A stretch of DNA of 64,000 bases from Oceanicola sp. 502str15 (lineage in GTDB: Bacteria > Pseudomonadota > Alphaproteobacteria > Rhodobacterales > Rhodobacteraceae): assembly GCF_024105635.1 (NCBI RefSeq), contig NZ_WYDQ01000001.1, positions 1,984,001-2,048,000 of the forward strand. Reading direction: 5' to 3'. The position numbers and the translations under genes are program-made. Shown piece by piece: positions 11,289 to 53,364 of the stretch. Position 1 is the first letter of the stretch, and every line of letters starts with the position of its first letter. Under the pieces are notes generated by a model. The model saw only the letters and a list, made by a program, of their open reading frames with translations. It made no database searches and was not told the origin of the DNA.

Positions 11289-12095
11289 ATGAGTTGCGCA
11301 GAAACCATCGCCGATTACGCCTTCCGCTCGCTGGGCTATGGCGAGCGGCTCTTGCCGCGCAGTGACTTCACGCTGTGCCAGCATTTCGTGCTGATCGGCT
11401 CGGGGCTGTTCTGGAACGTCTACTTTGGCCTCGTGGCGCTCTGCTCGGGGTTCTTTCTGGCGATCGTGGTGGCGCTGGGGAAGGCCTCGGCCAACCCCTG
11501 GCTACGCAAGCCAGCGGAGTGGTTCATCCTGATCTTCCGGGGCACGCCCTTCTTCATCCAATGTTTCTTCGCCTATTTCGCCTTCCTGTCGCTGAAGAGC
11601 CAATACGCCTTCTTCGATGCCTTCACCTCGGCCTGGCTGGGGGCGGTGATCGTGCTGTTCCTGAACACCTCGGCCTATTCGGGCGAGATCTTCTATGGCG
11701 CGCTGCGTTCGATCCCCAAGGGCGATATCGAGGCGGCGGATGCCTATGGGCTGAGCGGCTGGCACCGGTTCCGGCGCATCACCTTTCCCACCATGCTGCG
11801 GCTCGGTTGGCCGGCCTATACCAATGAGGCGATCTTTCTGTTTCACACAACGACGCTGGTGTTTTTCAGCGGGTTTCCGGCACGCCAGCAGGCGGGAGAT
11901 GCGCTTTATTATGCCAGCTACTTTGCCGACAAGACCTTCAACCCCTTCATCCCCTACCCGATCCTCGCCTTCTATTTCATCCTGCTGACGCTCTGCATCA
12001 TCGGGGTCTACACGGTGATCGGGCGGCGGCTGAACCGGCATCTGCCGCAGGAGCGCCGGGTGAAATTCAAGCTGAGGCCGCAGTTGATCCGATGA
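11289..12095 (+). CDS. ABC transporter permease (HisQ/ArtM-type), subunit 2
   Basis: A 268-residue inner-membrane permease partner. Segments such as LFWNVYFGLVALCSGFFLAI, WFILIFRGTPFFIQCFFAYF and AVIVLFLNTSAYSGEIF match the family, and the EAA loop is IEAADAYGLSGWHRFRRITFP. The RGTP motif near the second helix is typical of polar amino-acid permeases. I chose the ATG at 11289 because GAGGAGG lies upstream; the longer frame overlaps the first permease. The stop overlaps the next gene's start (ATGA), tying the transporter to the glutamine-synthetase-like enzyme. Confidence 0.92.
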   Translation: MSCAETIADYAFRSLGYGERLLPRSDFTLCQHFVLIGSGLFWNVYFGLVALCSGFFLAIVVALGKASANPWLRKPAEWFILIFRGTPFFIQCFFAYFAFLSLKSQYAFFDAFTSAWLGAVIVLFLNTSAYSGEIFYGALRSIPKGDIEAADAYGLSGWHRFRRITFPTMLRLGWPAYTNEAIFLFHTTTLVFFSGFPARQQAGDALYYASYFADKTFNPFIPYPILAFYFILLTLCIIGVYTVIGRRLNRHLPQERRVKFKLRPQLIR

Positions 12096-40991: not shown

Positions 40992-42257
40992 TCAAACCAC
41001 CCGGTCCCTCGCTACTTCGCGCAGGTGAACGCCCAGCAGCACCAGTCCGGGCCAGAGCATGTAGGCCTCGATCTCGATGTTCTCGCCGAACGACAGCAGC
41101 ACCATCGTCATCAGGATGCCCAGCGGCAGTCTTCCGCGCGGGTGGCGGGCGGCGTCTATCAGGGTGAAGGCCACGTGCCAGGCCATGGGCACCAGCAGGG
41201 CGAGGAACCCGACCAGGCCTTTCACGAAGAGCAGGCCGAACCAGGTGTGGTGGCTGCCGATCGGCATGTATTCCACCGCGTGCGAGCCGGGGTGGACGGT
41301 GCCGTGGCCGAACCATGGGGCCTCGTTCTCCCATCTCTCACGGGCGATCCGCTGCAGGGTCTCCCGCACGCGGGTGCTGTCGGCACGGGCGCCCTTGAAG
41401 GCGGACACCGCATCGCCGGCCACCGTTGCCAGCGTGGTCCCCACCACCGCGAGCGAGGCGGTCAGCGCCGCCGTCACCTGCCAGGCCCAGCCGCGCAGGA
41501 TCAGCGGCAGCATCCTTGGCGCAACGGTGCAGGCGACCAGCCCGACCAGACCCATCCGGGACTTGGAGGCGAGAATCATCAGCACCCCCGCCGCCACGCC
41601 CGCCGCCATCCAGCGACGGTCTTTCTCCTCGAGCGCGAAGAGCACCATGATGACCCCGAGCAGCGCCGCGAAGGGCGACCAGGGGGCGTAGAACTGCCAG
41701 CGCGGCGTCCAGCTTGCCGGGTCCCACGTGAAAAGGAACACGCTGAAATACTCCGGACCCGGCCCGCCGATGGCCTTGAGCGGCGAGGTGAAGATGCGCT
41801 CGGGCAGGCCGATGTAGGGGGCGATGAGCAGCGCGGGCGCGAGGGCCAGCGTCCATGCGCCGACCACGCATTGGCCCCGGATCAGCACCTCTCGGCGGAT
41901 CTGCAGCACGGCGCCCGCAAGCGGAAACAGCGCCAGCAGCGCCCAGCCCTTGGCCCAGCCGATGGAGCTCTTGATCGTCTGCTTCAGCCCGAGGCCCCAG
42001 TCGAGGTGGCCGACCCAGAGCGCGACGAGCATCACCGCCATGCCGATGAACCAGGCCCAGACCAGCGGCGGCACCGGCCCGGTCGGGCGCAGGTCGGCGC
42101 GCATCGCCGGGCCGAGGTAGAGCGAGAGCGCGGCCAGCCCGCCGAGCAGCCAGGCCAGCACCGGGCCGACGACGTAGAGCGCGCCTATCGCGTAGAACGG
42201 CCAGGTGAGCACGAGGGTCTTGTAGACCATCCGCTCGGGGCCGGTGAGGCCGGTCAT
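40992..42257 (-). CDS. O-antigen polymerase/ligase-family membrane protein (Wzy-like)
   Basis: A 421-residue inner-membrane protein with about 10-11 hydrophobic segments, for example ALYVVGPVLAWLLGGLAALSLYL and LPLGILMTMVLLSFG. A large periplasmic loop holds HGTVHPGSHAVEYMPIGSHHTW, typical of the O-antigen ligase/polymerase family where Arg/His residues act on lipid-linked sugars. In this locus it most likely polymerises the repeat unit. It overlaps the chain-length gene by four bases, so polymerisation and length control are coupled. Ligation to another acceptor is the alternative. Confidence 0.85.
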   Translation of the reverse strand: MTGLTGPERMVYKTLVLTWPFYAIGALYVVGPVLAWLLGGLAALSLYLGPAMRADLRPTGPVPPLVWAWFIGMAVMLVALWVGHLDWGLGLKQTIKSSIGWAKGWALLALFPLAGAVLQIRREVLIRGQCVVGAWTLALAPALLIAPYIGLPERIFTSPLKAIGGPGPEYFSVFLFTWDPASWTPRWQFYAPWSPFAALLGVIMVLFALEEKDRRWMAAGVAAGVLMILASKSRMGLVGLVACTVAPRMLPLILRGWAWQVTAALTASLAVVGTTLATVAGDAVSAFKGARADSTRVRETLQRIARERWENEAPWFGHGTVHPGSHAVEYMPIGSHHTWFGLLFVKGLVGFLALLVPMAWHVAFTLIDAARHPRGRLPLGILMTMVLLSFGENIEIEAYMLWPGLVLLGVHLREVARDRVV

Positions 42258-43693
42258 GTGCGCTCATCCGGGCGCGCGAGGAGGCGGCCGATCAGGGCGC
42301 CGCGCATCCAGCCCAGCATGAGGCCGAAGACCATCATCAACGTCGCCGCAACGCCTGCGGCCAGCGCCAGCTTGCGGTTGGGGGAGGAGGGGTTCTCGGG
42401 AAGCGAGGGATTTTCGAGCACCTGCACCAGCGGGTAGGAGGCATAGACGTCGGACTTGGTCGACTGCGTCCGGGCGATGGCGCTGGCAAAGACGGCCTCG
42501 GCCACGGTGAAGTCGCGTTGCAGGTCCTGCAGGCGGGCTGCGGGGGCGGCGAGGCGCTTTTGGGCGGAGAGCTCCGCGTCGAGCCGGGCCGACAGGGTTT
42601 CCAACTGACGTGCCGCGCCCGAGCGCTCTGCCTCCATCCGCACCAGCTGCGCCAGAAGCTCGGCGCGGGCGCCATCGGGGGCGAGATCGAGCGCGGCGAG
42701 CGCGGTGGGCTCAAGCCCCGTCACCGCAGCGGCGCGGGCCAGGGTGGCGGCCTGCGCCGAGGCCTGCGCCCCGCGCGCCACCTGCACCTTGGGGTGCCCC
42801 TCGCCATAGGCGGAGCGGGCCTCCGCCAGCGTGGCGGCGTGGCTGGCGGCCTCTTCGGTGAGGGCGGAGAACTCGGCGTCGGCATAGAGCTTCAGCGTTG
42901 CGGCGGCGGCCGTGGCGGGCAGGCCCAGCGTGGCTTCGAGCGCGGCGACGCTCTGGCTCTTCTCGCTCAGGGTCGCCTCGAGGTCGCGCACGCGGCTCTG
43001 CAACTGGCGGGTCTCTTCAACCATCGCATCATACTGGTCGGGCGAGACAAGGCCGGTCTCTCCCTGGAGAGCGGCGATGTCGGCCCGGGTGGCGGCCACG
43101 GAGCTGCGATACTCGGAAATCGCGGCCAGCCCGCTGTCTTCGCGGGTGGCCATCTCGTCGGCCCGCAGCGCGTCGATCTCGGCGAAGAAGGCCGCGATCA
43201 GCGCATCGCCGCGTGCCTGAGCCGTCTCCGGGCTGCCGCCGGCCATCTCCACATGGATCAGGCTGGTCTGGTCGACGAGGTTGATCCGCGGCGCGCCGAA
43301 CTCGCGGCGGGTCATCCCCATCGCGCCCGCGGCGGCATCCACGATCCGGTCGGCCCCGATAAGGCGCTTGTAGGTCTCGGTCGGGCTCACCGCGTTGCTG
43401 GCGAAGGCGGAGTTGGCATAGGAGGAGGCCTGCCCGATGCCGTTCAGGTTCATCGAGGCCGAGGCCCCGGAGCCGGGCAGGATCAGCGAGGCCGTAGATT
43501 TGAAGGTGAGCGGCGCGGTGCGCAGGTAGCCCGTGATCGGCGCCCAAATCGCCGCCCCGCCCATGAGCGCAAAGGCAAGGTAGCGGGGGAAGCGGCCCAG
43601 ATCGCCAATGCGGCCGCCCAGCAGGATGCGCTTGCCGGTCAGGCGGCGTTTGCGGGCAAGTTTGGCGGTGTGAAACGTATCTTGCAGGGTCAT
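42254..43693 (-). CDS. Wzz/GumC-type chain-length protein without kinase domain
   Basis: A 479-residue inner-membrane polysaccharide co-polymerase. The N-terminal helix is near residues 38-58 (YLAFALMGGAAIWAPITGYL). A long periplasmic coiled-coil region follows (LQSRVRDLEATLSEKSQSVAALEATLG and others). The proximal Pro-rich motif lies before the second helix (LPENPSSPNRKLALAAGVAATLMM). It ends about 20 residues later, so there is no attached BY-kinase and no Walker motif. No separate tyrosine kinase gene is in the window. It is first in a two-gene unit preceded by a CTATCC inverted repeat. Confidence 0.9.
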   Translation of the reverse strand: MTLQDTFHTAKLARKRRLTGKRILLGGRIGDLGRFPRYLAFALMGGAAIWAPITGYLRTAPLTFKSTASLILPGSGASASMNLNGIGQASSYANSAFASNAVSPTETYKRLIGADRIVDAAAGAMGMTRREFGAPRINLVDQTSLIHVEMAGGSPETAQARGDALIAAFFAEIDALRADEMATREDSGLAAISEYRSSVAATRADIAALQGETGLVSPDQYDAMVEETRQLQSRVRDLEATLSEKSQSVAALEATLGLPATAAAATLKLYADAEFSALTEEAASHAATLAEARSAYGEGHPKVQVARGAQASAQAATLARAAAVTGLEPTALAALDLAPDGARAELLAQLVRMEAERSGAARQLETLSARLDAELSAQKRLAAPAARLQDLQRDFTVAEAVFASAIARTQSTKSDVYASYPLVQVLENPSLPENPSSPNRKLALAAGVAATLMMVFGLMLGWMRGALIGRLLARPDERT

Positions 43694-43786: not shown

Positions 43787-43802
43787 CTATCCGTAGGGAT
43801 AG
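43787..43802. promoter_or_regulatory. EPS inverted repeat, site 1 (wzz-wzy unit)
   Basis: CTATCC-GTAG-GGATAG, perfect arms with 4-nt spacing, centred about 101 nt upstream of the chain-length gene. No good -35 is visible near the likely -10, so the site fits an activator. Copies occur at 45055, 47519 and 52010. Confidence 0.65.
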
Positions 43803-43851
43803 GAGGGGCTATGTGCCGGCCGTCCGTGCAGGCGCGCCGCGGGATGACGGC

Positions 43852-44271
43852 TCAACCGGGGAGCCCGTCGATCTTTTCGAGCGCGGCAAGATCGTCGTCC
43901 CAATCCGCACGACTGGAGAAGCAGATGCGTGCGCTGGGCTTCATTCCGATCGGACCGTCGAGTGACCCGGCCGGCACGACGACCACATCATCCTCCGCCT
44001 GTTCGAATGGCAGCGCGGAACCGCATTTCGTGCAGAAGCACTTCGCGTGGCGCGACCCGGAAAGCCGGAAATGCCTGATATGTTCCTCGCCCGACGGCCA
44101 GTTGAGGCGGGCCGACGCGAAAAACAGGTTTGCCGCATGGGCCGACCCGGTATCCTTGCGGCAGCGCGAGCAATGGCACAGGAAGAAACCCTGGAGATCG
44201 CCTGATATGTCGAAGGTCACTGTGCCACACAGGCACTGACCGGACGCCGGATCGCTAGTCGAAATGCTCAT
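43852..44271 (-). CDS. GFA-family (CENP-V fold) zinc protein
   Basis: A 139-residue protein of the glutathione-dependent formaldehyde-activating/CENP-V superfamily. The zinc ligands are visible as CLCGTV, CHCSRCRKDTGS and CFCTKCGS. Most family members have no proven reaction. The start at 44271 puts the first Cys motif at residue 13; the longer frame adds a Trp/Arg-rich leader without a ribosome binding site. It shares strand with the response regulator upstream (75 nt) and has no evident role in polysaccharide synthesis. Confidence 0.86.
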   Translation of the reverse strand: MSISTSDPASGQCLCGTVTFDISGDLQGFFLCHCSRCRKDTGSAHAANLFFASARLNWPSGEEHIRHFRLSGSRHAKCFCTKCGSALPFEQAEDDVVVVPAGSLDGPIGMKPSARICFSSRADWDDDLAALEKIDGLPG

Positions 44272-44346
44272 CGGAACCCACCCATCACGCCGCCCGCCAA
44301 ACATGGAGTAGCGGGCGATGCGGCCGCGCCACGCCCACACCCATTC

Positions 44347-44964
44347 TCAAAACAACCCGGCTTCCCGCGCCATAAGTGCCGCCTGGGTGCGGTTCGACGC
44401 GCCCACCTTCCGGTAGAGGGTCTTCATGTGCAGCTTGATCGTCGGCTCGGTGATGTCGAGGTCGCGGGCGATTTCCTTGTTGGATTTGCCCTCGGTCAGC
44501 CCCTTGAGCACCTGCAACTCGCGGGGCGTCAGCTTTTCGGCCATCGGGTGCGTCGGGGTCTCCTCGGCGGCGGTCATGAAGTCGATGGGGGCGTATTGCT
44601 CGCCCATCGCCATGAACTTCACCGCGTTGATCATCGACTTGGCGGGCAGGGTCTTGGGCACGAAGCCTGCCGCGCCGGCCTCCAGCGCCTTTTCGGCGAT
44701 CTCCTTGGTGGCCTCGCCCGAGAGCAGCGCCACCCGCTGGCCCGCGCCCAGCGCCATCGTTGCCTTCAGCCCGTCGAGGCCGTTCATGCCGGGCATGTTG
44801 AGGTCGAGCAGCACGAGGTCGAAGGGCTCGTCGGCGGCTTCGATCAGCTTGTGTGCGGCGGGCAGGTCGGGGGCGGTCTCGGTTTCGATGTCGCCCTGGC
44901 TCTGCAGGAACATCACCAGCGTGTCCCGCAGTAGGTCGTGGTCATCGGCAATCAGAACGCGCAT
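44347..44964 (-). CDS. LuxR/NarL-type response regulator of the EPS locus
   Basis: A 205-residue response regulator. The receiver domain has DD at residues 7-8, the phosphoacceptor Asp54 (VLLDLNMPG), a conserved Ser82 and Lys104 (FVPKT). The LuxR-type helix-turn-helix spans about 140-205: LTPRELQVLKGLTEGKSNKEI, then TIKLHMKTLYRKVG. It is divergent from the fused glycosyltransferase, and a CTATCC inverted repeat lies between them. The same repeat is found at three more EPS promoters, making this protein the best candidate for their regulator. I take the ATG at 44964 with GGGAG upstream; the much longer frame is a shadow of the opposite gene. Confidence 0.93.
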   Translation of the reverse strand: MRVLIADDHDLLRDTLVMFLQSQGDIETETAPDLPAAHKLIEAADEPFDLVLLDLNMPGMNGLDGLKATMALGAGQRVALLSGEATKEIAEKALEAGAAGFVPKTLPAKSMINAVKFMAMGEQYAPIDFMTAAEETPTHPMAEKLTPRELQVLKGLTEGKSNKEIARDLDITEPTIKLHMKTLYRKVGASNRTQAALMAREAGLF

Positions 44965-45054
44965 CGGAGGCTCCCGGGTTTCCGCACTGGTAGAACGCTT
45001 CATCCAATACCTAACCCATCGGCGGACGGAAAGGGGCGGAACATTCGGAGCGTC

Positions 45055-45073
45055 CCTATCCCCTTCGGATAGG
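45055..45073. promoter_or_regulatory. EPS inverted repeat, site 2 (regulator/fusion divergent region)
   Basis: CCTATCC-CCTTC-GGATAGG, perfect 7-bp arms with a 5-nt spacer, centred 100 nt from the response-regulator start and 135 nt from the fused glycosyltransferase start. TAATAG follows at 45089 as a possible -10 for the rightward unit. Confidence 0.68.
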
Positions 45074-45198
45074 CCGTCGCGCCACTGGTAATAGTTTCTT
45101 AACCAAAGCGCCGCGCGCCTCTCCTCCCGCTCCGTTGAGGCGGGCCGGGGGCGGCGGGCATGAAGAGGGCAAGTTCCTGAACCAGAAGGATTTGCCCG

Positions 45199-46578
45199 AT
45201 GAAAGCCGCCACGTTCGACACGCCCCACACCGCCGTCACCCCGGCCCTGCCCACCGCCACGCTGCCCGCGCTCGGCCTCGACCTTGTTGATGCCACCCCC
45301 GCGCAGACCATCGACGCCCTGCTCGCCCCGGGCCGCCGCCGCGCCTTCTTCATGAATGCGCATTGCTGCAACATCCGCCGCCGCAACCGGGCCTACCGCG
45401 AGGCCGTTGCCGGGGCCGACATGGTGCTGCCCGACGGCATTGGCGTGGAGCTGGCTGGCAAGATGACCGGCCACGCCCTCACCGCCAACCTCAACGGAAC
45501 CGATCTCGTGCCCGAGCTGCTGGAAGAAGCGGCGGCTGAGGGCAAGTCCGTCTACCTCTTCGGCGGCACGCCCGGCACGGCAGAGGCCGCCGCCGCCGCG
45601 CTCAAGGCCCGCATTCCCGCGCTTGTCATCGCCGGCACCCGCGATGGTTTCGCCGGCGCGGCGGATGCCGATGCCGTGGTCGACGCCATCAACGACAGCG
45701 GCGCCGACATCGTGCTGGTCGCTCTCGGCGTGCCGATGCAGGAGCTCTGGCTGCACCGCCATGCCTGGCGGCTCGACGCGCCGCTCGCGCTGGCCGTCGG
45801 CGCGCTCTTCGACTTTCTCGCCGGCAACGTGACCCGCGCGCCCGCCATGGTCCGCAAGGCCAAGGCCGAATGGGTCTGGCGGCTGGCGCAGGAGCCGCGC
45901 CGCCTTGCCAAGCGCTACCTCGCAGGCAATGCCAGCTTCCTCGCCCATGCCGCGCTGAAGGCCTGGGGCCCCGAGAGCTTCGCCGCACTCCAGCGCCGCA
46001 CACTCGACGTGACCCTTTCGCTCGCGGCCCTCGTGCTGCTCTCTCCCCTGCTGCTGCTCACCGCGCTCGCCATCAAGGCCGACAGCCGCGGCCCGGTGTT
46101 CTTCAGGCAAACCCGCGTGGGCCGCGATGGCCGCGTGTTCACCATGTTCAAGTTCCGCTCGATGAGCGTCGACGCTGAGGCCCGCCGCGCCGCGCTGCTC
46201 GCCACTTCCGACCGCGACGGCGTGTGCTTCAAGTCCAAGGCCGATCCGCGCGTGACCCGCGTGGGCCGCTTCATCCGCCGCTTCTCCATCGACGAGCTGC
46301 CGCAGATCCTGAACGTGCTGAAGGGCGAGATGGCCATCGTCGGGCCGCGCCCGGCGCTGCCCTCCGAAGTGGCGGCCTATCCGGCCCGCGCGCTCGGCCG
46401 CCTTGCGGTGAAGCCCGGCCTTACCGGCGTGTGGCAGGTCTCCGGCCGCGCCTCCATCGGCTTCGACAAGATGGTCGAGATGGACCTTTCCTACGCCGCC
46501 TCGCGCACCCTGCTGCTCGACCTCACCCTCATCGCCCGCACCTTCGGCGCCGTGCTCGGCGGCCGGGGCGCTTACTGA
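45199..46578 (+). CDS. Fused TagA/WecG-type glycosyltransferase and polyprenyl phosphoglycosyltransferase
   Basis: A 459-residue two-domain protein. Residues about 20-250 form the TagA/WecG domain (MNAHCCNIRRRN, VLPDGIGV with its catalytic Asp, NLNGTDL, YLFGGTPGTAE), which adds the second sugar to a lipid-linked first sugar. Residues about 262-459 form a monotopic phosphoglycosyltransferase: re-entrant helix LAALVLLSPLLLLTALAIK, KFRSMSVDAE, the Asp-Glu pair in SIDELPQ and VKPGLTGVWQVSGR. One chain would thus start the repeat unit and extend it. Domain order is reversed relative to reaction order. galU follows 45 nt later. Confidence 0.93.
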   Translation: MKAATFDTPHTAVTPALPTATLPALGLDLVDATPAQTIDALLAPGRRRAFFMNAHCCNIRRRNRAYREAVAGADMVLPDGIGVELAGKMTGHALTANLNGTDLVPELLEEAAAEGKSVYLFGGTPGTAEAAAAALKARIPALVIAGTRDGFAGAADADAVVDAINDSGADIVLVALGVPMQELWLHRHAWRLDAPLALAVGALFDFLAGNVTRAPAMVRKAKAEWVWRLAQEPRRLAKRYLAGNASFLAHAALKAWGPESFAALQRRTLDVTLSLAALVLLSPLLLLTALAIKADSRGPVFFRQTRVGRDGRVFTMFKFRSMSVDAEARRAALLATSDRDGVCFKSKADPRVTRVGRFIRRFSIDELPQILNVLKGEMAIVGPRPALPSEVAAYPARALGRLAVKPGLTGVWQVSGRASIGFDKMVEMDLSYAASRTLLLDLTLIARTFGAVLGGRGAY

Positions 46579-46623
46579 CCCCCCTCCCCTCACCTCACCT
46601 GCTCACCGAAAGGACCACCTGCC

Positions 46624-47511
46624 ATGACCCACGTTCGCAAAGCCGTCTTCCCCGTCGCCGGAATGGGCACCCGCTTTCTGCCCGCCACCAAGTCGATCCC
46701 GAAGGAGATGCTGCCGCTCGTTGACCGACCGCTGATCCAATACGCCATCGATGAGGCCCGCGAGGCCGGGATCGAGGAGTTCATCTTCGTCACCGCCGCC
46801 GGCAAGGGCGCGCTGGAAGACTACTTCGACACCGCCGCCGCGCTGGAGCACCGCCTGGAAGCCGCCGGCAAGGCCGATGCGCTGGCCGCGCTGGAGCGCA
46901 CCCGGATGCCCGAAGGCGCCCTAAGCTTCCTGCGCCAGCCCAACCCGCGCGGCCTCGGCCACGCCGTCCGGCTGGCCCGCAAGCTGGTGGGCGACGCACC
47001 CTTCGCCGTGCTTCTGCCCGATGACGTGATCCGCGCCCGCCGTGGAGCGCTGGCGCAGATGGTCGAGGCCCACGCCCGCACCGGCGGGCACATGGTTGCC
47101 ACCATGGACGTGCCGCGCAGCAAGGTCTCCGCCTATGGCGTGCTCGACGTGGCCGAGCGGCAAGGCCGGGTCGCCGTGGCCCGCGGCATGGTCGAGAAGC
47201 CGCGCGCCGATGTCGCCCCCTCCACCAGCGCGGTGATCGGGCGCTACATCCTCGAGCCCTCGATCTTCGACAAGCTCGAAACCCTCGGGCCCGGCGCTGG
47301 CGGCGAGTTGCAGCTGACTGATGCCATCAACGCCGACCTTCCCCGTGCCGGTGTCTGCGGCTACGCCTTCGAGGGCGAGCGGTTCGACTGCGGCTCGGTG
47401 CAGGGGTTCGTGCAGGCCACCGCCGCCTTCGCGCTCGAGCGCGCCGAACTGGCAGGCGAGCTGCGCGGCTTCCTTGCCGAGCGCAGCGCCACCCTGCGCC
47501 AGGTCGCCTGA
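46624..47511 (+). CDS. galU: UTP-glucose-1-phosphate uridylyltransferase GalU
   Basis: A 295-residue nucleotidyltransferase that makes UDP-glucose for polysaccharide synthesis. The signature GMGTRFLPATKSIPKEMLP is present, together with FAVLLPDDVI and VEKPRAD. GGELQLTDAI is the expected late block. The length matches bacterial GalU. GAAAGGACC precedes the ATG. It is the second gene of the unit driven from the region of EPS site 2 and ends 8 nt before EPS site 3. Confidence 0.95.
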   Translation: MTHVRKAVFPVAGMGTRFLPATKSIPKEMLPLVDRPLIQYAIDEAREAGIEEFIFVTAAGKGALEDYFDTAAALEHRLEAAGKADALAALERTRMPEGALSFLRQPNPRGLGHAVRLARKLVGDAPFAVLLPDDVIRARRGALAQMVEAHARTGGHMVATMDVPRSKVSAYGVLDVAERQGRVAVARGMVEKPRADVAPSTSAVIGRYILEPSIFDKLETLGPGAGGELQLTDAINADLPRAGVCGYAFEGERFDCGSVQGFVQATAAFALERAELAGELRGFLAERSATLRQVA

Positions 47512-47518
47512 GCCACGA

Positions 47519-47544
47519 CTATCCGAAAGGATAGGTCCCTATCC
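47519..47544. promoter_or_regulatory. EPS inverted repeat, site 3 (sensor unit)
   Basis: CTATCC-GAAA-GGATAG at 47519-47534, perfect arms, followed by a third half-site CTATCC (47539-47544). Centred about 86 nt before the secreted oxidoreductase-fold gene. A weak -10 (CATAGA, about 47579) follows without a clear -35. Confidence 0.65.
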
Positions 47545-47612
47545 GCCTGACCCTTTGGGACGGGCGGGCCATCCGTGGCATAGACTGCCGCAGGAAACCA
47601 AGGAGCACCCCA

Positions 47613-48119
47613 ATGTTGCGCACAATCATCCAGTCGCTCTCCCTCGCCGCGCTCACCGCCCTGCCGCTTGCCGCGCAGGAGCTGGCCGCCCCGGAAGGCG
47701 AAGTGATCCTCACCGTCTCGGGCGAGATCGCCACCACCAACGCCGAGGGCACCGCGCAATTCGACCTTGCCATGCTCGAGGCACTCGGCACCGAAACCGT
47801 CGAGACCACCACCATCTGGACCGAGGGCACCAACACCTTCGAGGGCGTCTCGCTGAAGGCGCTGGCAGAGGCGGTGGGCATGGAGGGTGCCACGCTGCGC
47901 GCCACGGCGATCAACGACTATGCCGTCGAGATCCCGCTGACCGACGCCGTCGAGGGCGGCCCGATCGTGGCCTATCGGATGAACGGCACCGAGATGTCGG
48001 TGCGCGACAAGGGCCCGCTCTGGATCATCTACCCCTATGATGCCAGCGCCGAGTATCGCACCGAGGTGATCTATTCCCGCAGCATCTGGCAACTCGACCG
48101 CATCGTCGTGACCGACTAA
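47613..48119 (+). CDS. Secreted molybdopterin-oxidoreductase-fold protein
   Basis: A 168-residue exported protein; the signal peptide ends about LPLAA-QE (residue 22). The mature part resembles the molybdopterin-binding domain of sulfite-oxidase-like enzymes (FEGVSLKALAEAVG, KGPLWIIYPYD) but is too short for a full enzyme and has no evident Cys ligand for molybdenum. It probably binds a small ligand or protein in the periplasm. It precedes the hybrid kinase by 51 nt under EPS site 3, so it may modulate that kinase's periplasmic sensor. That is inference from position. Confidence 0.8.
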   Translation: MLRTIIQSLSLAALTALPLAAQELAAPEGEVILTVSGEIATTNAEGTAQFDLAMLEALGTETVETTTIWTEGTNTFEGVSLKALAEAVGMEGATLRATAINDYAVEIPLTDAVEGGPIVAYRMNGTEMSVRDKGPLWIIYPYDASAEYRTEVIYSRSIWQLDRIVVTD

Positions 48120-48170
48120 GGCTGAACCGGTCCGCGCGCCACCAGCGCGGGCCACACCCAGGAGCCCTGC

Positions 48171-50717
48171 ATGGCCAGAAGCAGCCGCCGCCCCTCAAGC
48201 ATGCGCTACACCGCCTCCGCCCTCGCGGGGGCGTTCTGCCTTGCGGCGCTGGTCTATCTCTCGATCAATGTGGCCCGCGATCTTCGGCTGCTGAATTCGG
48301 CCAGTTCCGACAACGTGCAATGGACCCTGTCGCAGTCGGAGGTGGAGTTTCTCGAGTTTCAGATCCACCTCGCCGCGCTGCCGGGGGATGGCGGCGACGA
48401 GTTGCGCGCGCTGCGCCGGGAATATGACATCTTCTACAGCCGGATCACCACGCTGGAGCAGAGCTCGATCTACAGCGAGCTGCGTGCCGAGCCGGAGTTC
48501 TCGCGCAACTTGCGGATCGTGAAGACTTTCCTCGACCGCACCGTCCCGCTCATCGACGCGCCGGACGCGGAGCTTGCAGCCTCCGTGCCCGAGCTTCAGG
48601 CCCGTGCGGAAGAGGTGCGACCCAACGTGCGTGCGCTGGCGAATTCGGGCCTCAACTACTTTGCCGTGGATTCCGACCGGCGGCGCGACAACGTGGCCGT
48701 CACCCTGACCCAGCTCGCCGTAGGCGTGACCGTGCTGGTGCTGGCCCTGCTCGCCTTCGCCGCTTACCTGAATTTCCTCAACCGCCAGAACGTGCGCCGC
48801 CGCCGGGAGGTGCTCGAAAGCGCGCGGCGGATGAATGTCGTGACCTCCACCGCGCTCGACGGGGTGATCGTGATCGACAAGGCCGGCACCGTGCTCGATT
48901 TCAACGCCGCCGCCACGCAGATCTTCGGCTACTCCGCGGAAGAGGCGTTGGGGGCCAACCTCGGCGCGTTGATCGTGCCCGAGGAGTACCGCGCCGCCCA
49001 TGATGCCGGGATGCAGCGGATGCGCGATGGCGGCGAGCAGCGCGTGGTCGGCAAGGGCCGGGTCAAGCTGGCGGCGCGGCGCAAGTCGGGCGAGGTCTTT
49101 CCCGTCGAGTTCGCCATCCAGTCCGCCGAAACCGACGACGGCACCATCTTCATCTCCTTCCTGCGCGACATCTCGCACCGGGTTCAGGCTGAACAGGAGC
49201 TGGTCGAAACCCGCGACCGCGCGCTGGCCGGCGAGAAGGCCAAGACCGATTTCCTCGCCACCATGAGCCACGAGATCCGCACGCCACTGAACGGCCTCCT
49301 GGGGAATCTGGAGTTGATGCAGGACACCCGCCTCAGCGCCCGCCAGGCCCGCTACGTCAAGAATATGGACACCTCGGGCAAACTGCTGATGAGCCACATC
49401 TCCGATGTGCTCGACATCACCAAATACGACGCCGGCAAGCTTCAGCTCCGCCCGGTGGCGATGAACCTCTCCACCCTGCTTCAGGATATCGTCGACAACC
49501 AGAGCGGCGCCGCGCTGGCGCAGGATACCACGCTGGAATGGGGCTGGTCGGGCCCGCAGCTCGACTGGATCAGGGCCGACCGCGACAGGCTTCAGCACGT
49601 GCTGATGAACATCATCGGCAACGCGGTGAAGTTCACCCGCGGCGGTCGCGTGACGGTGGAGGCCGAGCAGCTGGGCGGCGCGAACAATCCCGAAGTGCAG
49701 ATCACCGTCAGCGACACCGGCATCGGCATGGAGGCGGGCCTGCAGGCCCACATCTTCGACGACTTCATGACCGGCGACAGCTCCTATGACCGCGAGGTCG
49801 GCGGCACCGGCCTTGGCCTCGGCATTGCGCAGCGCTTCGTGAAGGCGCTCGGCGGCTCGATCGAGGTCGAGAGCGAGGCGGGCGTGGGCAGCAGCTTCAT
49901 GGTGCGCCTGCCCGTCGAGCCGATTGCCGCGCCGGGGCCGGAGGTGGCCGCGCGCAAACCGCGCAGCAAGGCGATGGCCAGCAAGGTGCTTCTGGTCGAG
50001 GACAACGAGATCAACCGCGTGGTCGCCCGCGAGATGCTCGAGGCCGCCGGCCACACCGTGACCCTCGCCCACAACGGGCGCGAGGCGGTGGAAAAGGCCG
50101 GGACCGCGCCCTTCGACCTGATCCTGATGGACATCTCCATGCCGGTGATGGACGGGCGCGAGGCCACCCGCGCCATTCGCGCCGGCCATGGCCCCTGCGC
50201 CCGCGTGCCCATCATCGCCCTCACCGCCAACGCGGTCGCCGAGGAGCAGGAGGCGTTTCTTTCCGACGGGATGGACGACATCGTGACAAAGCCGCTCTCC
50301 CGCGCCGCGCTCGACCGGGTGCTGGCCGATCACAGCGGAGCCGACAGGCCGGAGCGCGCGGCGGAAAACCCCGCCGTGGCAGTCAGCTACCTCGACGAGC
50401 TGCGCGACACGCTCGGGGTGGAGGCAATGGGAGGATTGCTGGACCGTTTCGGCAGCGAGGTCGACGCCCATCTCGCCTTCCTCGAAACCTCGGCCGACGA
50501 CGACCTTGCCGACACCGCCGCGCGCACCCACAAGATTGCCGGAAGCGCGGCCACCCTCGGCGCGGTCGCCCTGCGCGCCGCGCTTGTGGGCATCGAGGAT
50601 GCAGCCAAGGCGGGCGACACGAAAGGCATGTGCAAGGGCATCGACGCGCTGCCGGAAGTCTGGGCGCAGACCCGCGCCGCCCTGGTGGCGGAACGCCGCA
50701 AGGCCCCCCGCCCCTGA
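48171..50717 (+). CDS. Hybrid sensor histidine kinase with REC and HPt domains
   Basis: An 848-residue inner-membrane kinase. Helix 1 (about 14-34) and helix 2 (about 179-201) frame a 145-residue periplasmic sensor region. A PAS domain spans about 222-340 (LDGVIVIDKAGTVLDFNAAA). HisKA has His367 in SHEIRTP. HATPase spans about 475-582 (NIIGNAVKF, DTGIGM, GGTGLGLGI). The receiver has Asp654, and the HPt domain has His787 in THKIAGSAATLG. It can run an internal phosphorelay and pass phosphate to a separate response regulator, most simply the LuxR-type one at 44347. It converges on wza with 7 nt between stops. Confidence 0.95.
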   Translation: MARSSRRPSSMRYTASALAGAFCLAALVYLSINVARDLRLLNSASSDNVQWTLSQSEVEFLEFQIHLAALPGDGGDELRALRREYDIFYSRITTLEQSSIYSELRAEPEFSRNLRIVKTFLDRTVPLIDAPDAELAASVPELQARAEEVRPNVRALANSGLNYFAVDSDRRRDNVAVTLTQLAVGVTVLVLALLAFAAYLNFLNRQNVRRRREVLESARRMNVVTSTALDGVIVIDKAGTVLDFNAAATQIFGYSAEEALGANLGALIVPEEYRAAHDAGMQRMRDGGEQRVVGKGRVKLAARRKSGEVFPVEFAIQSAETDDGTIFISFLRDISHRVQAEQELVETRDRALAGEKAKTDFLATMSHEIRTPLNGLLGNLELMQDTRLSARQARYVKNMDTSGKLLMSHISDVLDITKYDAGKLQLRPVAMNLSTLLQDIVDNQSGAALAQDTTLEWGWSGPQLDWIRADRDRLQHVLMNIIGNAVKFTRGGRVTVEAEQLGGANNPEVQITVSDTGIGMEAGLQAHIFDDFMTGDSSYDREVGGTGLGLGIAQRFVKALGGSIEVESEAGVGSSFMVRLPVEPIAAPGPEVAARKPRSKAMASKVLLVEDNEINRVVAREMLEAAGHTVTLAHNGREAVEKAGTAPFDLILMDISMPVMDGREATRAIRAGHGPCARVPIIALTANAVAEEQEAFLSDGMDDIVTKPLSRAALDRVLADHSGADRPERAAENPAVAVSYLDELRDTLGVEAMGGLLDRFGSEVDAHLAFLETSADDDLADTAARTHKIAGSAATLGAVALRAALVGIEDAAKAGDTKGMCKGIDALPEVWAQTRAALVAERRKAPRP

Positions 50718-50724
50718 TGGCCTC

Positions 50725-51924
50725 TCAGGGCCGCAGCAGCCCCAGCACCCGCCCGATCTCGCCCACGTTCGTGACCGTGCTGTCGTAGCAGGCGATGGAG
50801 TCGCCCGGCAGCAGGAAGGGGTCGTAGTCGTCGCGGTCGGCACGGCGCAGCAGGTTCTCGATGTCGCGCTCGATCACCACGGAAACCTTGGTCACCGGGT
50901 TGCGCGAGAACAGCACCGAGGAGCGGTTGGCGCTGGTCGCCCGCGCCCCGCCCACGCAGTTGGTGTTCACCACCGCTTGCAGGTAGCGGGTGCCATAGGG
51001 CACCTCGCGGGTCTCCCGGCCGATCGCCGAGGGCGCGTTGCCCGTGGCTGGCTGAGTGAGATTGGAGAGGAACAGCGAAATCCCCGGCGGGCTGATCGGG
51101 CTCGGGCGCATCAGGTCTTCCTGGAAGCAGCCCCGGCTCGGCACGTTCACCTCGTCGCCGGTGAGCAGCATGATATCGACCGCGTTCTGCCCCTCGAAGA
51201 CGCCGCGCATGTCGAGCGTGTAGAGCGCGCCGCCCCGGCGCACCTCGACGGCGGAAATGTCGGCATCGGGCCGCACGCCCCCTGCCGCCCGCAGTGCGGC
51301 CGAAAGGTTGCGCCCCTCGGTGGAGGCGCCCAGCGCCTGCTGGCGACGACTGTCCACCTGATCGCCCGGCACGCCGCCGATTTCCACGGCGCGGGGTTCG
51401 AAGACGGCGCCCGAGACACCGACGGTGACTGAGGCGAAATCGGCGACGCGCACCGAGATGCGCGGGCTGTCGGAGAAGAAGTCTCCGGCGAGGAGCTGGC
51501 GGGCAATGTCGGCCTCGATCTGCGAGGTCAGCCGTCCTTGCGCCGGGATCGGCGCAAGGAAGGGCAGCTTCAGCGTGCCATCGCGCGACACCACGTAATC
51601 GCCGTTGAAGGTCTCGTCGTCGCCGACGCGGATGTTCACGAGGTCGTTGCGGGTGAGCCGCTCGCCACGCAGGGCCGAAGCCGCCGCCACGCCACTCCCC
51701 TTGCCGCCTGCACCGCCGCGCGGGGCGCGGCACTTCTGGGCGTTGAGGGTGGCCGAGCGCAGAAACTGCGCCTCGTCGCGGCTCACATCCGGCGCGCGAT
51801 ACTGCGCCTGATAGGCATCGCCCTGCGCAACGGGTTCGAGATTGTCGGGCGTATCGAGCGCGGCGCAGGCCGTCAGGGCCAGCGCGGCGACGAGCGCCGT
51901 GGAAGACTTGTAAAGCTGCACCAT
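50725..51924 (-). CDS. Wza-like polysaccharide export lipoprotein
   Basis: A 399-residue outer-membrane export protein. The lipobox LTAC puts the lipidated Cys at residue 20. The poly-export domain is visible at LVNIRVGDDETFNGDYVVSRDG and onward with LKLPFLAPIPAQG. SLBB-like repeats follow (VTVGVSGAVFEPRAVEIGG; LLTGDEVNVPSRG). A late VLGLLRP closes the chain. It would form the outer-membrane channel for the polymer. The ATG at 51924 has a weak AAGG upstream; the 1299-residue longer frame runs antisense to the flippase and glycosyltransferase and is rejected. It shares EPS site 4 with the divergent flippase gene. Confidence 0.92.
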   Translation of the reverse strand: MVQLYKSSTALVAALALTACAALDTPDNLEPVAQGDAYQAQYRAPDVSRDEAQFLRSATLNAQKCRAPRGGAGGKGSGVAAASALRGERLTRNDLVNIRVGDDETFNGDYVVSRDGTLKLPFLAPIPAQGRLTSQIEADIARQLLAGDFFSDSPRISVRVADFASVTVGVSGAVFEPRAVEIGGVPGDQVDSRRQQALGASTEGRNLSAALRAAGGVRPDADISAVEVRRGGALYTLDMRGVFEGQNAVDIMLLTGDEVNVPSRGCFQEDLMRPSPISPPGISLFLSNLTQPATGNAPSAIGRETREVPYGTRYLQAVVNTNCVGGARATSANRSSVLFSRNPVTKVSVVIERDIENLLRRADRDDYDPFLLPGDSIACYDSTVTNVGEIGRVLGLLRP

Positions 51925-52009
51925 ACCTGCATTCGCCTTGTCGCCTGCGGTTGAGTGATTGTTATTGCCTTCCCGCGCCCCGGTCGAGAGAGCGTCGGGC
52001 GCGGCCACC

Positions 52010-52025
52010 CTATCCTTCCGGATAT
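52010..52025. promoter_or_regulatory. EPS inverted repeat, site 4 (wza/wzx divergent region)
   Basis: CTATCC-TTCC-GGATAT, one mismatch in the second arm, 4-nt spacer. The centre is about 93 nt from the wza start and 108 nt from the wzx start, so one site could serve both genes. Confidence 0.6.
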
Positions 52026-52125: not shown

Positions 52126-53364
52126 ATGCTTACCACTCACGGAACATCTCGTATCGTGCAGAACCTCCTCGCCTACGGGGCGTCGGAGGTTGCTGCCAAG
52201 GCCTCGCGGCTGTTGGTGGTCGTCGCCGTCGCCCGAACGCTCGATCTCGAGCAGATCGGTGTGGCGGCGGCGGCTCTCGCGGCGGCCGACATCCTGAAGT
52301 CGCTCACCGAGAACGGCGTCGGCCAGCGCATCATCGCCGCAGCAGACGATGAGCTGGAGGCGACCTGCGCCACCGCCCACCGGATCTTCTGGGCCTGGTG
52401 CCTTGGCCTCTTCGTGCTGCAATCGACCGTTGGCCTCGCGCTCTATGCCGCGGGCGGCAGCCTTACCCTCCTGCTGCTGATCCTGCTGCTGGCGGGCGAA
52501 TACCTCTTCATGCCCGGCGGGCTGGTGCAGACTGCGCTGGCCATGCGCGCCGGCAAGCTGCGCCAGACGGCGGCCATCTCCGGCGGCCAGATCGTGGCGG
52601 CCAACCTCATGTCGGCGGCGCTGGCGCTGGCCTGGCCCTCGGCTTTGGCGCTGATCCTGCCGCGTCTGCTCACAGCGCCCTTCTGGCTCGTCGCCATGCG
52701 CCGCCTTCACCCCTGGACGCCTGACACGTCCGCCCCCCGGGCACCACTCGCGCCTTTCGCTCGTTTCGGCGCAGCGGTGCTCGGGGTGGAACTGGTCAAG
52801 GCGCTCAGGATGCAGGCCGACAAGCTGATCGTCGGCACGCTCATGGGCGCCGAGGCGCTTGGCCTCTACTTCATGGCCTTCAACGCGGGCCTCAGCCTCG
52901 CCACCTCCTTCTCCACCGCCTTCTCCACCGTACTCTTCCCGCATCTCTGCACCAGTACCGACCGGGCGCAGGCGCTGCGCCAGGCGATGATGCTGGGCCT
53001 CGGCCTCATCACCCCCGCCGTGCTGGCTCAGGCGCTGCTGGCCCCGGTCTACGTGCCGCTGCTCTTGGGCGCGGGCTGGGAGGAGCTGCCGCAGATCGTG
53101 TCGATCCTCTGCCTCGTCGCCATCCCCACCACCCTCTGGGCCGCCGCCGCCGGCTGGATGCGGGCGCAGGGCCGCGCTGGCGCCGAGTTCCGCGTGACCG
53201 CGCTGATGACCGCAGCACTCATGCTCAACACCGCCGCGCTGGCCCCCTTCGGCCTGCTGACCGTCGCCACCGGCTACGCGCTCACCGCCACCGTGGTGAT
53301 GGTGCTCGCCTCCCTCCCTGCCCTCCACGCGGCCTTCGCCCGCCCCCACTTCGCAAAGGTCTGA
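52126..53364 (+). CDS. Wzx-type oligosaccharide flippase
   Basis: A 412-residue inner-membrane protein with about 12 hydrophobic helices (LTLLLLILLLAGEYLFMPGGL, VLAQALLAPVYVPLLLGAGW and others). It belongs to the polysaccharide-synthesis/MOP exporter family and should flip the lipid-linked repeat unit to the periplasm for the Wzy-like polymerase. The N-terminus LLAYGASEVAAKASRLLVVV is typical. I take the ATG at 52126 over a TTG 30 nt earlier. Three glycosyltransferases follow with small gaps or an overlap, forming one unit. Confidence 0.9.
   Translation: MLTTHGTSRIVQNLLAYGASEVAAKASRLLVVVAVARTLDLEQIGVAAAALAAADILKSLTENGVGQRIIAAADDELEATCATAHRIFWAWCLGLFVLQSTVGLALYAAGGSLTLLLLILLLAGEYLFMPGGLVQTALAMRAGKLRQTAAISGGQIVAANLMSAALALAWPSALALILPRLLTAPFWLVAMRRLHPWTPDTSAPRAPLAPFARFGAAVLGVELVKALRMQADKLIVGTLMGAEALGLYFMAFNAGLSLATSFSTAFSTVLFPHLCTSTDRAQALRQAMMLGLGLITPAVLAQALLAPVYVPLLLGAGWEELPQIVSILCLVAIPTTLWAAAAGWMRAQGRAGAEFRVTALMTAALMLNTAALAPFGLLTVATGYALTATVVMVLASLPALHAAFARPHFAKV

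Follow-up and report, generated by a model that had tools for sequence, protein, structure and literature searches.

A conserved inverted repeat ahead of exopolysaccharide and PruR-kinase genes in Rhodobacteraceae, a candidate operator of a NarL-type response regulator

Pterin sensing in bacteria has one worked-out output, the turnover of cyclic di-GMP (c-di-GMP) in Agrobacterium, where periplasmic pterins are bound by the protein PruR, which in turn acts on DcpA through the periplasmic domain of the latter, in a pathway that limits polysaccharide production (PMC13259868, in the part of the text available). In a second configuration PruR is paired with a sensor kinase carrying a WX7E motif; such pairs, described from genome surveys, are named PruR-DTB after Greenwich et al. 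2024 (PMC13259868, same part). No regulator or target gene is named for PruR-DTB in that part of the text, and the term 'response regulator' occurs 0 times in a word search of the review. Here we describe a locus of Oceanicola sp. 502str15, in a 64,000-nucleotide window of contig NZ_WYDQ01000001.1 (positions 1,984,001 to 2,048,000), in which an inverted repeat, CTATCC-N4/5-GGATAG, precedes both exopolysaccharide (EPS) genes and a PruR-kinase gene pair. The same mirror-image 20-letter sequence stands before the EPS genes and a nearby sensor, suggesting one dedicated switch protein for both. Neither this operator nor a PruR-DTB regulator was recognised in the literature searched, a search that did not use the motif letters and for which subscription journals were mostly outside reach, so that either may already be in print.

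The locus resembles PruR-DTB systems in that a PruR-like gene lies directly before a kinase gene with WX7E in the periplasmic part of its product, and the PAS, HisKA, HATPase and REC domains of the kinase are those of the Ruegeria pomeroyi example (PMC13259868, Figure 5, in the available part). It differs in that the kinase adds an Hpt domain, in that about 145 residues (by eye) lie between the membrane segments as against about 190 given there for the periplasmic region, and in that a candidate cognate regulator, operator and set of target operons can be named. With the PruR-DcpA system of Agrobacterium tumefaciens, as far as that source describes it, the locus shares a periplasmic PruR, the DcpA-type periplasmic motif and a polysaccharide output, here a predicted one; however, the output of DcpA is c-di-GMP turnover, whereas here a kinase and a transcription regulator would take that part. 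The elements on which the argument rests are the following.

43787-43802, unstranded: dyad 1 (slot B), CTATCCGTAGGGATAG, exact, N4, ahead of the Wzc-like gene
45056-45072, unstranded: dyad 2 (slot A), CTATCCCCTTCGGATAG, exact, N5, between the divergent regulator and WecG-fusion genes
47519-47534, unstranded: dyad 3 (slot C), CTATCCGAAAGGATAG, exact, ahead of the PruR-kinase operon
47539-47544, plus strand: third half-site CTATCC; the first half of dyad 3 lies 20 bp upstream
52010-52025, unstranded: dyad 4 (slot D), CTATCCTTCCGGATAT, one mismatch, between the divergent wza and flippase genes
44347-44964, minus strand: NarL/FixJ-type response regulator, the proposed dyad binder (Pfam Response_reg (REC) and GerE)
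47613-48119, plus strand: PruR-type periplasmic pterin-binding protein, the proposed signal receptor (Pfam Oxidored_molyb)
48171-50717, plus strand: hybrid sensor kinase, PAS-HisKA-HATPase-REC-Hpt, with DcpA-type WX7E (W51, E59)

A first-pass annotation of the window had reported these four sites, three perfect and one with a single mismatch, and a second reading agrees with it; a flanking C and G extend dyad 2 to 45055-45073. The intervals given there, 86-108 nt from dyad centre to start codon and 135 nt for the fused gene, also match those measured again: 101 nt from dyad 1 to the Wzc-like gene, 100 nt from dyad 2 to the regulator and 135 nt to the fused WecG-sugar transferase gene, 86.5 nt from dyad 3 to PruR, and 93.5 and 108.5 nt from dyad 4 to wza and the flippase, respectively. 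The same annotation placed every site ahead of EPS genes, which holds for dyads 1, 2 and 4 but not for dyad 3, which precedes the sensor operon of PruR and kinase.

Exact copies of CTATCC-N4/5-GGATAG occur 3 times in the window and 0 times in each of 100 dinucleotide-preserving shuffles. In the whole genome (4,442,269 bases) the exact dyads are the same three, all in this locus, against 0 for a reversed control. Random scatter of the exact motif, which the first-pass annotation had left to a genome-wide search, is therefore not seen, and near matches stand at background: N4 forms with up to 2 mismatches are found at 46 places (control 68), and the 14-letter core of the N5 form with up to 3 mismatches at 89 (control 84), with no excess in either. 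Because near matches are at background, this test makes no wider regulon visible in the host genome. Exactly one mismatch is found at four N4 places, dyad 4 and three others (C1:1245283, C2:39621 and C2:61144), the number of the latter being near a rough chance expectation; since about 4 one-mismatch N4 places are expected by chance, by rough arithmetic from the control, dyad 4 rests on its place and its conservation and not on rarity.

Conservation was followed in the best 80 of at least 519 confirmed regulator homologues, whose loci total 1,506,946 bases (one scan) and comprise 61 with a regulator of 64-99% identity (L047-L107) and 19 with one of 41-53% (L108-L126). The window's own pattern is present in these 80 loci as 60 exact and 66 one-mismatch sites, as against 0 and 1 for the reversed control. 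At least one site lies in 50 of the 61 close loci; among the 19 distant ones, 3 hold a one-mismatch site, two of these more than 3 kb from the regulator. With both strands counted, the consensus of the 60 exact sites is (A)CCTATCC-G-w-w-C-GGATAGG(T), that is, about ACCTATCCGwwCGGATAGGT (20 bp), in which the outer C is kept in 80% of sites, the outermost A in 45% and the first spacer G in 53%, the two centre positions being A or T in 85%.

The sites also recur in the same four slots in orthologous loci, as conservation of the motif would have it. In the 34 loci where the WecG fusion, the regulator and Wzc stand in that order, each non-coding slot was given its highest score (N4 or N5, cut-off 12 bits). 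Slot C, ahead of PruR, is filled in 31 of 31 syntenic loci, every time at 18 bits or more, while slot B (Wzc) is filled in 30 of 34 and slot D (wza/flippase) in 25 of 30; random 250-bp windows from the same loci reach 12 bits in 2 of 598. These counts describe positions and are no independent test, because the scoring matrix had been trained on sites in those very loci, whereas the count over 80 loci used the window's pattern alone. Over all 61 close loci, 108 of the 118 N4 hits of 18 bits or more fall at slot positions, and six permuted symmetric matrices gave none. Counted for N4 only at 12 bits, the slots are filled in 32/61 (A), 29/34 (B), 48/53 (C) and 22/30 (D) cases, figures that overlap because slots A and C are one site where the PruR and regulator genes adjoin.

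The motif tracks the regulator across genomes. In a survey of 295 family genomes, 48 hold a close regulator, defined by a hit scoring at least about 245 bits (60-100% identity). The exact motif is present in 78 of the 295 (110 sites), the reversed control in 42 (46 sites), and the motif is found in 34 of the 48 close-regulator genomes as against 44 of the 247 others (Fisher p 1.2e-12, with kinship ignored). Genomes with a close regulator hold 60 motif sites to 10 control sites, and 28 of the 75 motif places listed lie within 12 kb of one of the 63 regulator places listed. The association holds outside the EPS neighbourhood as well. In triads (PruR, kinase and regulator genes) without a Wzc relative in the locus, 17 of 22 gaps between PruR and regulator retain a site scoring at least 15 bits, and four distant triads (L172-L175, regulator 50-54%) carry the exact motif between the PruR and regulator genes.

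Ten EPS regions were also read for sites of 14 bits or more. In four genomes where EPS genes and close regulator are on separate contigs (G238, G219, G113 and G006), the site between wza and flippase is present in 4 of 4, and two of these also hold a site between the Wzc and WecG genes. Regulator and sites are both present in the regions of G311, G185, G004, G218 and G018, the G185 regulator, at 54%, standing beside the EPS genes; G054, in contrast, has the EPS-locus protein, no regulator match at E 1e-30 and no dyad site in its EPS region. G311, G298 and G300 came from the triad-only genome set, and the coordinates of G298 and G300 are the same as those of G238 and G113, so the genome sets overlap. 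The first-pass annotation had put the regulator forward as the best candidate, and these associations, at the locus and across contigs, leave its proposed role as binder of the dyads well supported by association. In a further case (L193:4041), an exact motif stands just ahead of a PruR-kinase pair (PruR 62%) in an 8-kb stretch without a regulator match.

As for the regulator itself, its REC and LuxR/GerE domains, together with the phosphorylation residues D7, D8, D54 and K104, invariant in 61 of 61 homologues, place it in the NarL/FixJ type, and the best solved relative is NarL. Its recognition helix reads EPTIKLHMKTLYRK. One further regulator-like match, at E 1e-30 or below, is present in the host genome. 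Sites of NarL are built of TACYYMT heptamers, which the half-site ACCTAT fits from the second letter on; the heptamers would be 8 bp apart here, as against 2 bp for NarL of E. coli, and the targets would be EPS genes. RcsB and VpsT likewise control polysaccharide genes through a LuxR/GerE-type DNA-binding domain, but with other sensors and other operators.

Distant relatives of the regulator read differently, 13 of the 15 printed having KMHV where close ones have KLHM or KLHV, at a position near the residues that touch DNA in NarL. In 11 PruR-regulator gaps of distant relatives (41-53%), 26 spacings were tried; the best were ATCC-N4-GGAT, seen 3 times where a shuffle gives 0.04 on average, and GGAT-N8-ATCC, seen 4 times where it gives 0.06. 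Related dyads, CCATCC-N4-GGATGG, lie in the PruR-regulator gap of L110 and L115, about 205 bp before the regulator. The gap dyads of the distant group are suggestive of what is perhaps a changed operator.

The gene pair behind dyad 3, which the first-pass annotation missed as a PruR-type protein and its kinase, is the probable input of the regulator. The 168-residue product of 47613-48119 matches the structure 7kos, 'Pterin Binding Protein', over residues 23-166 (E 5e-44), and 7KOS is PruR of Agrobacterium (PMC13259868, in the available part). As a SUOX-like domain of about 170 residues related to that protein, it resembles the PruR family; it has a hydrophobic N-terminus, judged by eye, and is single-copy in the host genome at E 1e-5. 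Residue W69, which lines up with a Trp of 7kos and is conserved in 98% of 64 homologues, is probably the Trp that replaces the molybdenum-ligating Cys, going by the inferred position of that Cys. In the kinase, the W of WX7E is kept in 56 of 56 homologues, and its second residue is E in 50 and D in 6 of the 56; with the gene order, the periplasmic motif and the cytoplasmic HisKA, HATPase_c, REC and Hpt domains, the pair has the make-up of PruR-DTB. PruR and kinase genes are both found in 53 of the 61 close and 11 of the 19 distant loci, contig ends cutting some loci short. An early guess, likeness to XssR/S/Q of cyanobacteria, was dropped after literature look-up.

The geometry of the promoters is weakly in keeping with an activator, as the first-pass annotation had proposed. 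Hexamers resembling a -35 element are raised at +28.5/+29.5 from the dyad centre (slot A 4/25, B 4/24, C 6/47, D 6/20), which is the top offset in slot D only. Those resembling a -10 element peak near +52 in slots A (3) and D (4), at +51.5 in slot C (6, second to the half-site itself) and at +72.5 (6) and +48.5 (5) in slot B. These offsets would give a 17-bp spacing with the dyad near -64, which fits an activator, the counts being small. In slot C, 35 of the 47 sites match the third half-site CTATCC at +20 bp in 4 or more of its 6 letters, where other offsets average 2.67; such a half-site is not enriched in slot B (3/24, mean 2.39) or slot D (1/20), and is moderately enriched on both sides in slot A (6/25 and 8/25, means about 1).

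In the proposed mechanism, the PruR-type protein, probably carrying a reduced pterin, would act on the periplasmic domain of the hybrid kinase, and Asp54 of the regulator would receive phosphate from the kinase by way of the REC and Hpt domains of the latter. A regulator dimer would then bind sites like the 20-bp consensus, about 64 bp upstream of the predicted transcription start, and the dyads would serve as its operators. From these it would activate the PruR-kinase operon, where the third half-site would offer an extra contact, the EPS operons headed by the Wzc-like gene, the WecG fusion, wza and the flippase, and probably also its own gene. That the dyads are operators, that this regulator binds them and that sensor and EPS operons come under joint control is likely, and we hold this part with good confidence. 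The pterin step, for which homology speaks, seems probable. We lean towards the chain as a whole, from periplasmic pterin state through PruR, phosphorelay and NarL-type regulator to EPS operons switched on via a 20-bp operator, and in the same cautious degree towards a pathway that has a third half-site at the sensor promoter and has spread through many Rhodobacteraceae with species-dependent targets.

Several observations weigh against this reading. The exact motif is absent from 14 of the 48 close-regulator genomes and present in the 44 of 247 already mentioned (50 sites, as against 36 control sites), and 11 of the 61 close loci lack a site within one mismatch (L051, L066, L071, L075, L082, L085, L086, L095, L097, L101 and L105). 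Likewise, 5 of the 22 triad-only gaps score below 15 bits, slot A, the weakest, reaches 12 bits in 19 of 34 syntenic loci, and the promoter elements are faint. Only 23 of the 48 close-regulator genomes hold a relative of the conserved EPS-locus protein of the window, as do 3 of the 18 genomes whose triad lacks this EPS neighbourhood in the fetched locus. Lastly, FolX is required for monapterin in E. coli, and its model gives a single hit of 21.6 bits in the host genome against a cut-off of 152, while in 14 control genomes it gives hits in 8 and exceeds the cut-off in 1.

The occurrence of the motif in genomes without a close regulator, and the fact that co-localisation is not binding, could be taken to mean that a protein encoded elsewhere binds the dyads and that the regulator is a mere neighbour. 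We regard this as quite improbable, since the motif goes with the triad even in the absence of EPS neighbours and is kept by EPS loci on other contigs, since hardly any sites lie around regulators of 41-53% identity, of which 13 of the 15 listed differ in the recognition helix, and since four of the exceptions (L172-L175) are themselves triads. A different kind of element altogether, an RNA hairpin acting as leader or terminator structure, is suggested by the short stem that CTATCC-N4-GGATAG can form and by the position of dyad 3 just past the end of the upstream reading frame. If structure drove the signal, changes that keep a G-U pair should prevail, yet stem-breaking (T4 to C) and G-U-keeping (A13 to G) changes are equally frequent in slot C (5 vs 5 of 47) and slot B (2 vs 2 of 24), with 0 changes on both sides; it is the letters as such that are conserved, divergent regions carry the pattern too and no T run follows the window sites. 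The hairpin was rejected on these grounds, and its chance is very slight.

Two further alternatives keep the operator and its regulator. In one, the input is not a pterin, the PruR-like protein binding another molecule or merely scaffolding the kinase; with pterin binding resting on homology and FolX below its cut-off in the host genome, this deserves some weight, though the strength of the match to 7kos, Agrobacterium PruR in the available part of PMC13259868, and the near-invariance of W69 leave it a doubtful choice. In the other, the phosphorylated regulator represses the EPS operons, in line with the limiting of polysaccharide production by the Agrobacterium pathway (PMC13259868, same part). 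The dyads here lie upstream of the faint -35 and -10 positions and not over them, and repression is accordingly the unlikely sign of control. The preferred reading thus remains activation by a PruR-fed regulator.

The operons that such a regulator would control, and their neighbours in the window, are as follows.

42254-43693, minus strand: Wzc-like protein, target operon behind dyad 1 (GNVR, E 4.6e-4, below the Pfam cut-off)
40992-42257, minus strand: conserved EPS-locus protein, perhaps a polymerase (no Pfam match, 0 families)
45199-46578, plus strand: WecG-type glycosyltransferase fused to a sugar transferase, target behind dyad 2 (Pfam)
46624-47511, plus strand: nucleotidyl transferase (NTP_transferase), GalU-like
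50725-51924, minus strand: polysaccharide export protein (wza), target behind dyad 4 (Poly_export)
52126-53364, plus strand: flippase (wzx), target behind dyad 4 (Polysacc_synt_3)
43852-44271, minus strand: glutathione-dependent formaldehyde-activating (GFA) family gene, between regulator and dyad 1

The GFA gene looks like an insertion that parts regulator and dyad, because no relative of its product was found in L047-L126 and because in many relatives the dyad directly follows the regulator stop codon. In Vannielia litorea (regulator 99% identity; L047:10616-11743), the regulator and Wzc genes are about 1.1 kb apart, and the stretch between them holds a one-mismatch dyad (at 11637) and no GFA relative. 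A Rhodobacteraceae-type PruR-kinase-regulator locus (L063, the same as G238; regulator 80%) comes from a record titled Nocardioides marinus DP1N28-1, a title that is probably wrong.

A relative of the conserved EPS-locus protein at E 1e-100 or better is present in 25 of the 295 family genomes, and 23 of these 25 are among the 48 with a close regulator. Given that the protein is found in only 23 of the 48 and 3 of the 18 genomes above, triad and motif extend beyond this EPS locus and the system often serves something else; in many genomes regulator and motif are kept in its absence, and targets therefore differ between species. Other EPS types or other targets may be controlled there. Beyond the first-pass annotation, the analysis thus shows that the architecture is conserved, that the association extends across contigs, that a PruR-kinase pair is the probable input and that the system is not confined to this EPS locus.

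Motifs elsewhere were followed in 40 stretches, hand-picked from the listed places and compared with the window proteins, 20 proteins from 9 stretches being run through Pfam. Several of the motifs lie inside mechanical reading frames or near housekeeping genes (gyrA in L159, PNPase in L168), and these look like chance. Two stretches were not counted: in L196 the triad is present with the motif at the far end of the kinase gene instead of in the PruR-regulator gap, and in L176 the motif lies 1.1 kb before the regulator, outside the PruR gap. In close-regulator genomes, an exact motif stands between two Hint-domain genes, one also with RTX repeats (L163:3960), possibly another target, and another stands about 400 bp before a DUF7507 gene, downstream of a HlyD-like gene (L166:4003). 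A third, in a genome whose regulator is at 56%, lies about 115 bp before an alginate-export family gene that is divergent from an aconitase gene (L171:4996). The strict form ACCTATCC-N4-GGATAGGT was found in 1 of 385 class genomes, in a 3-kb locus with no relative of 15 window query proteins; this count says little about absence elsewhere, because five own-family genomes in the sample, the host included, also lack the strict form.

If the proposed chain is true, the PruR-DTB class would gain a complete transcriptional output, and a redox-active metabolite would be tied to the production of slime, that is, of EPS. A named regulator, operator and set of target operons in culturable bacteria would make the kinase-type PruR pathway directly testable, with the operator as a search key for targets in other genomes. 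For the family to which the host belongs, mostly marine bacteria, the finding is of a dyad shared before EPS genes and of a sensor that probably detects pterins.

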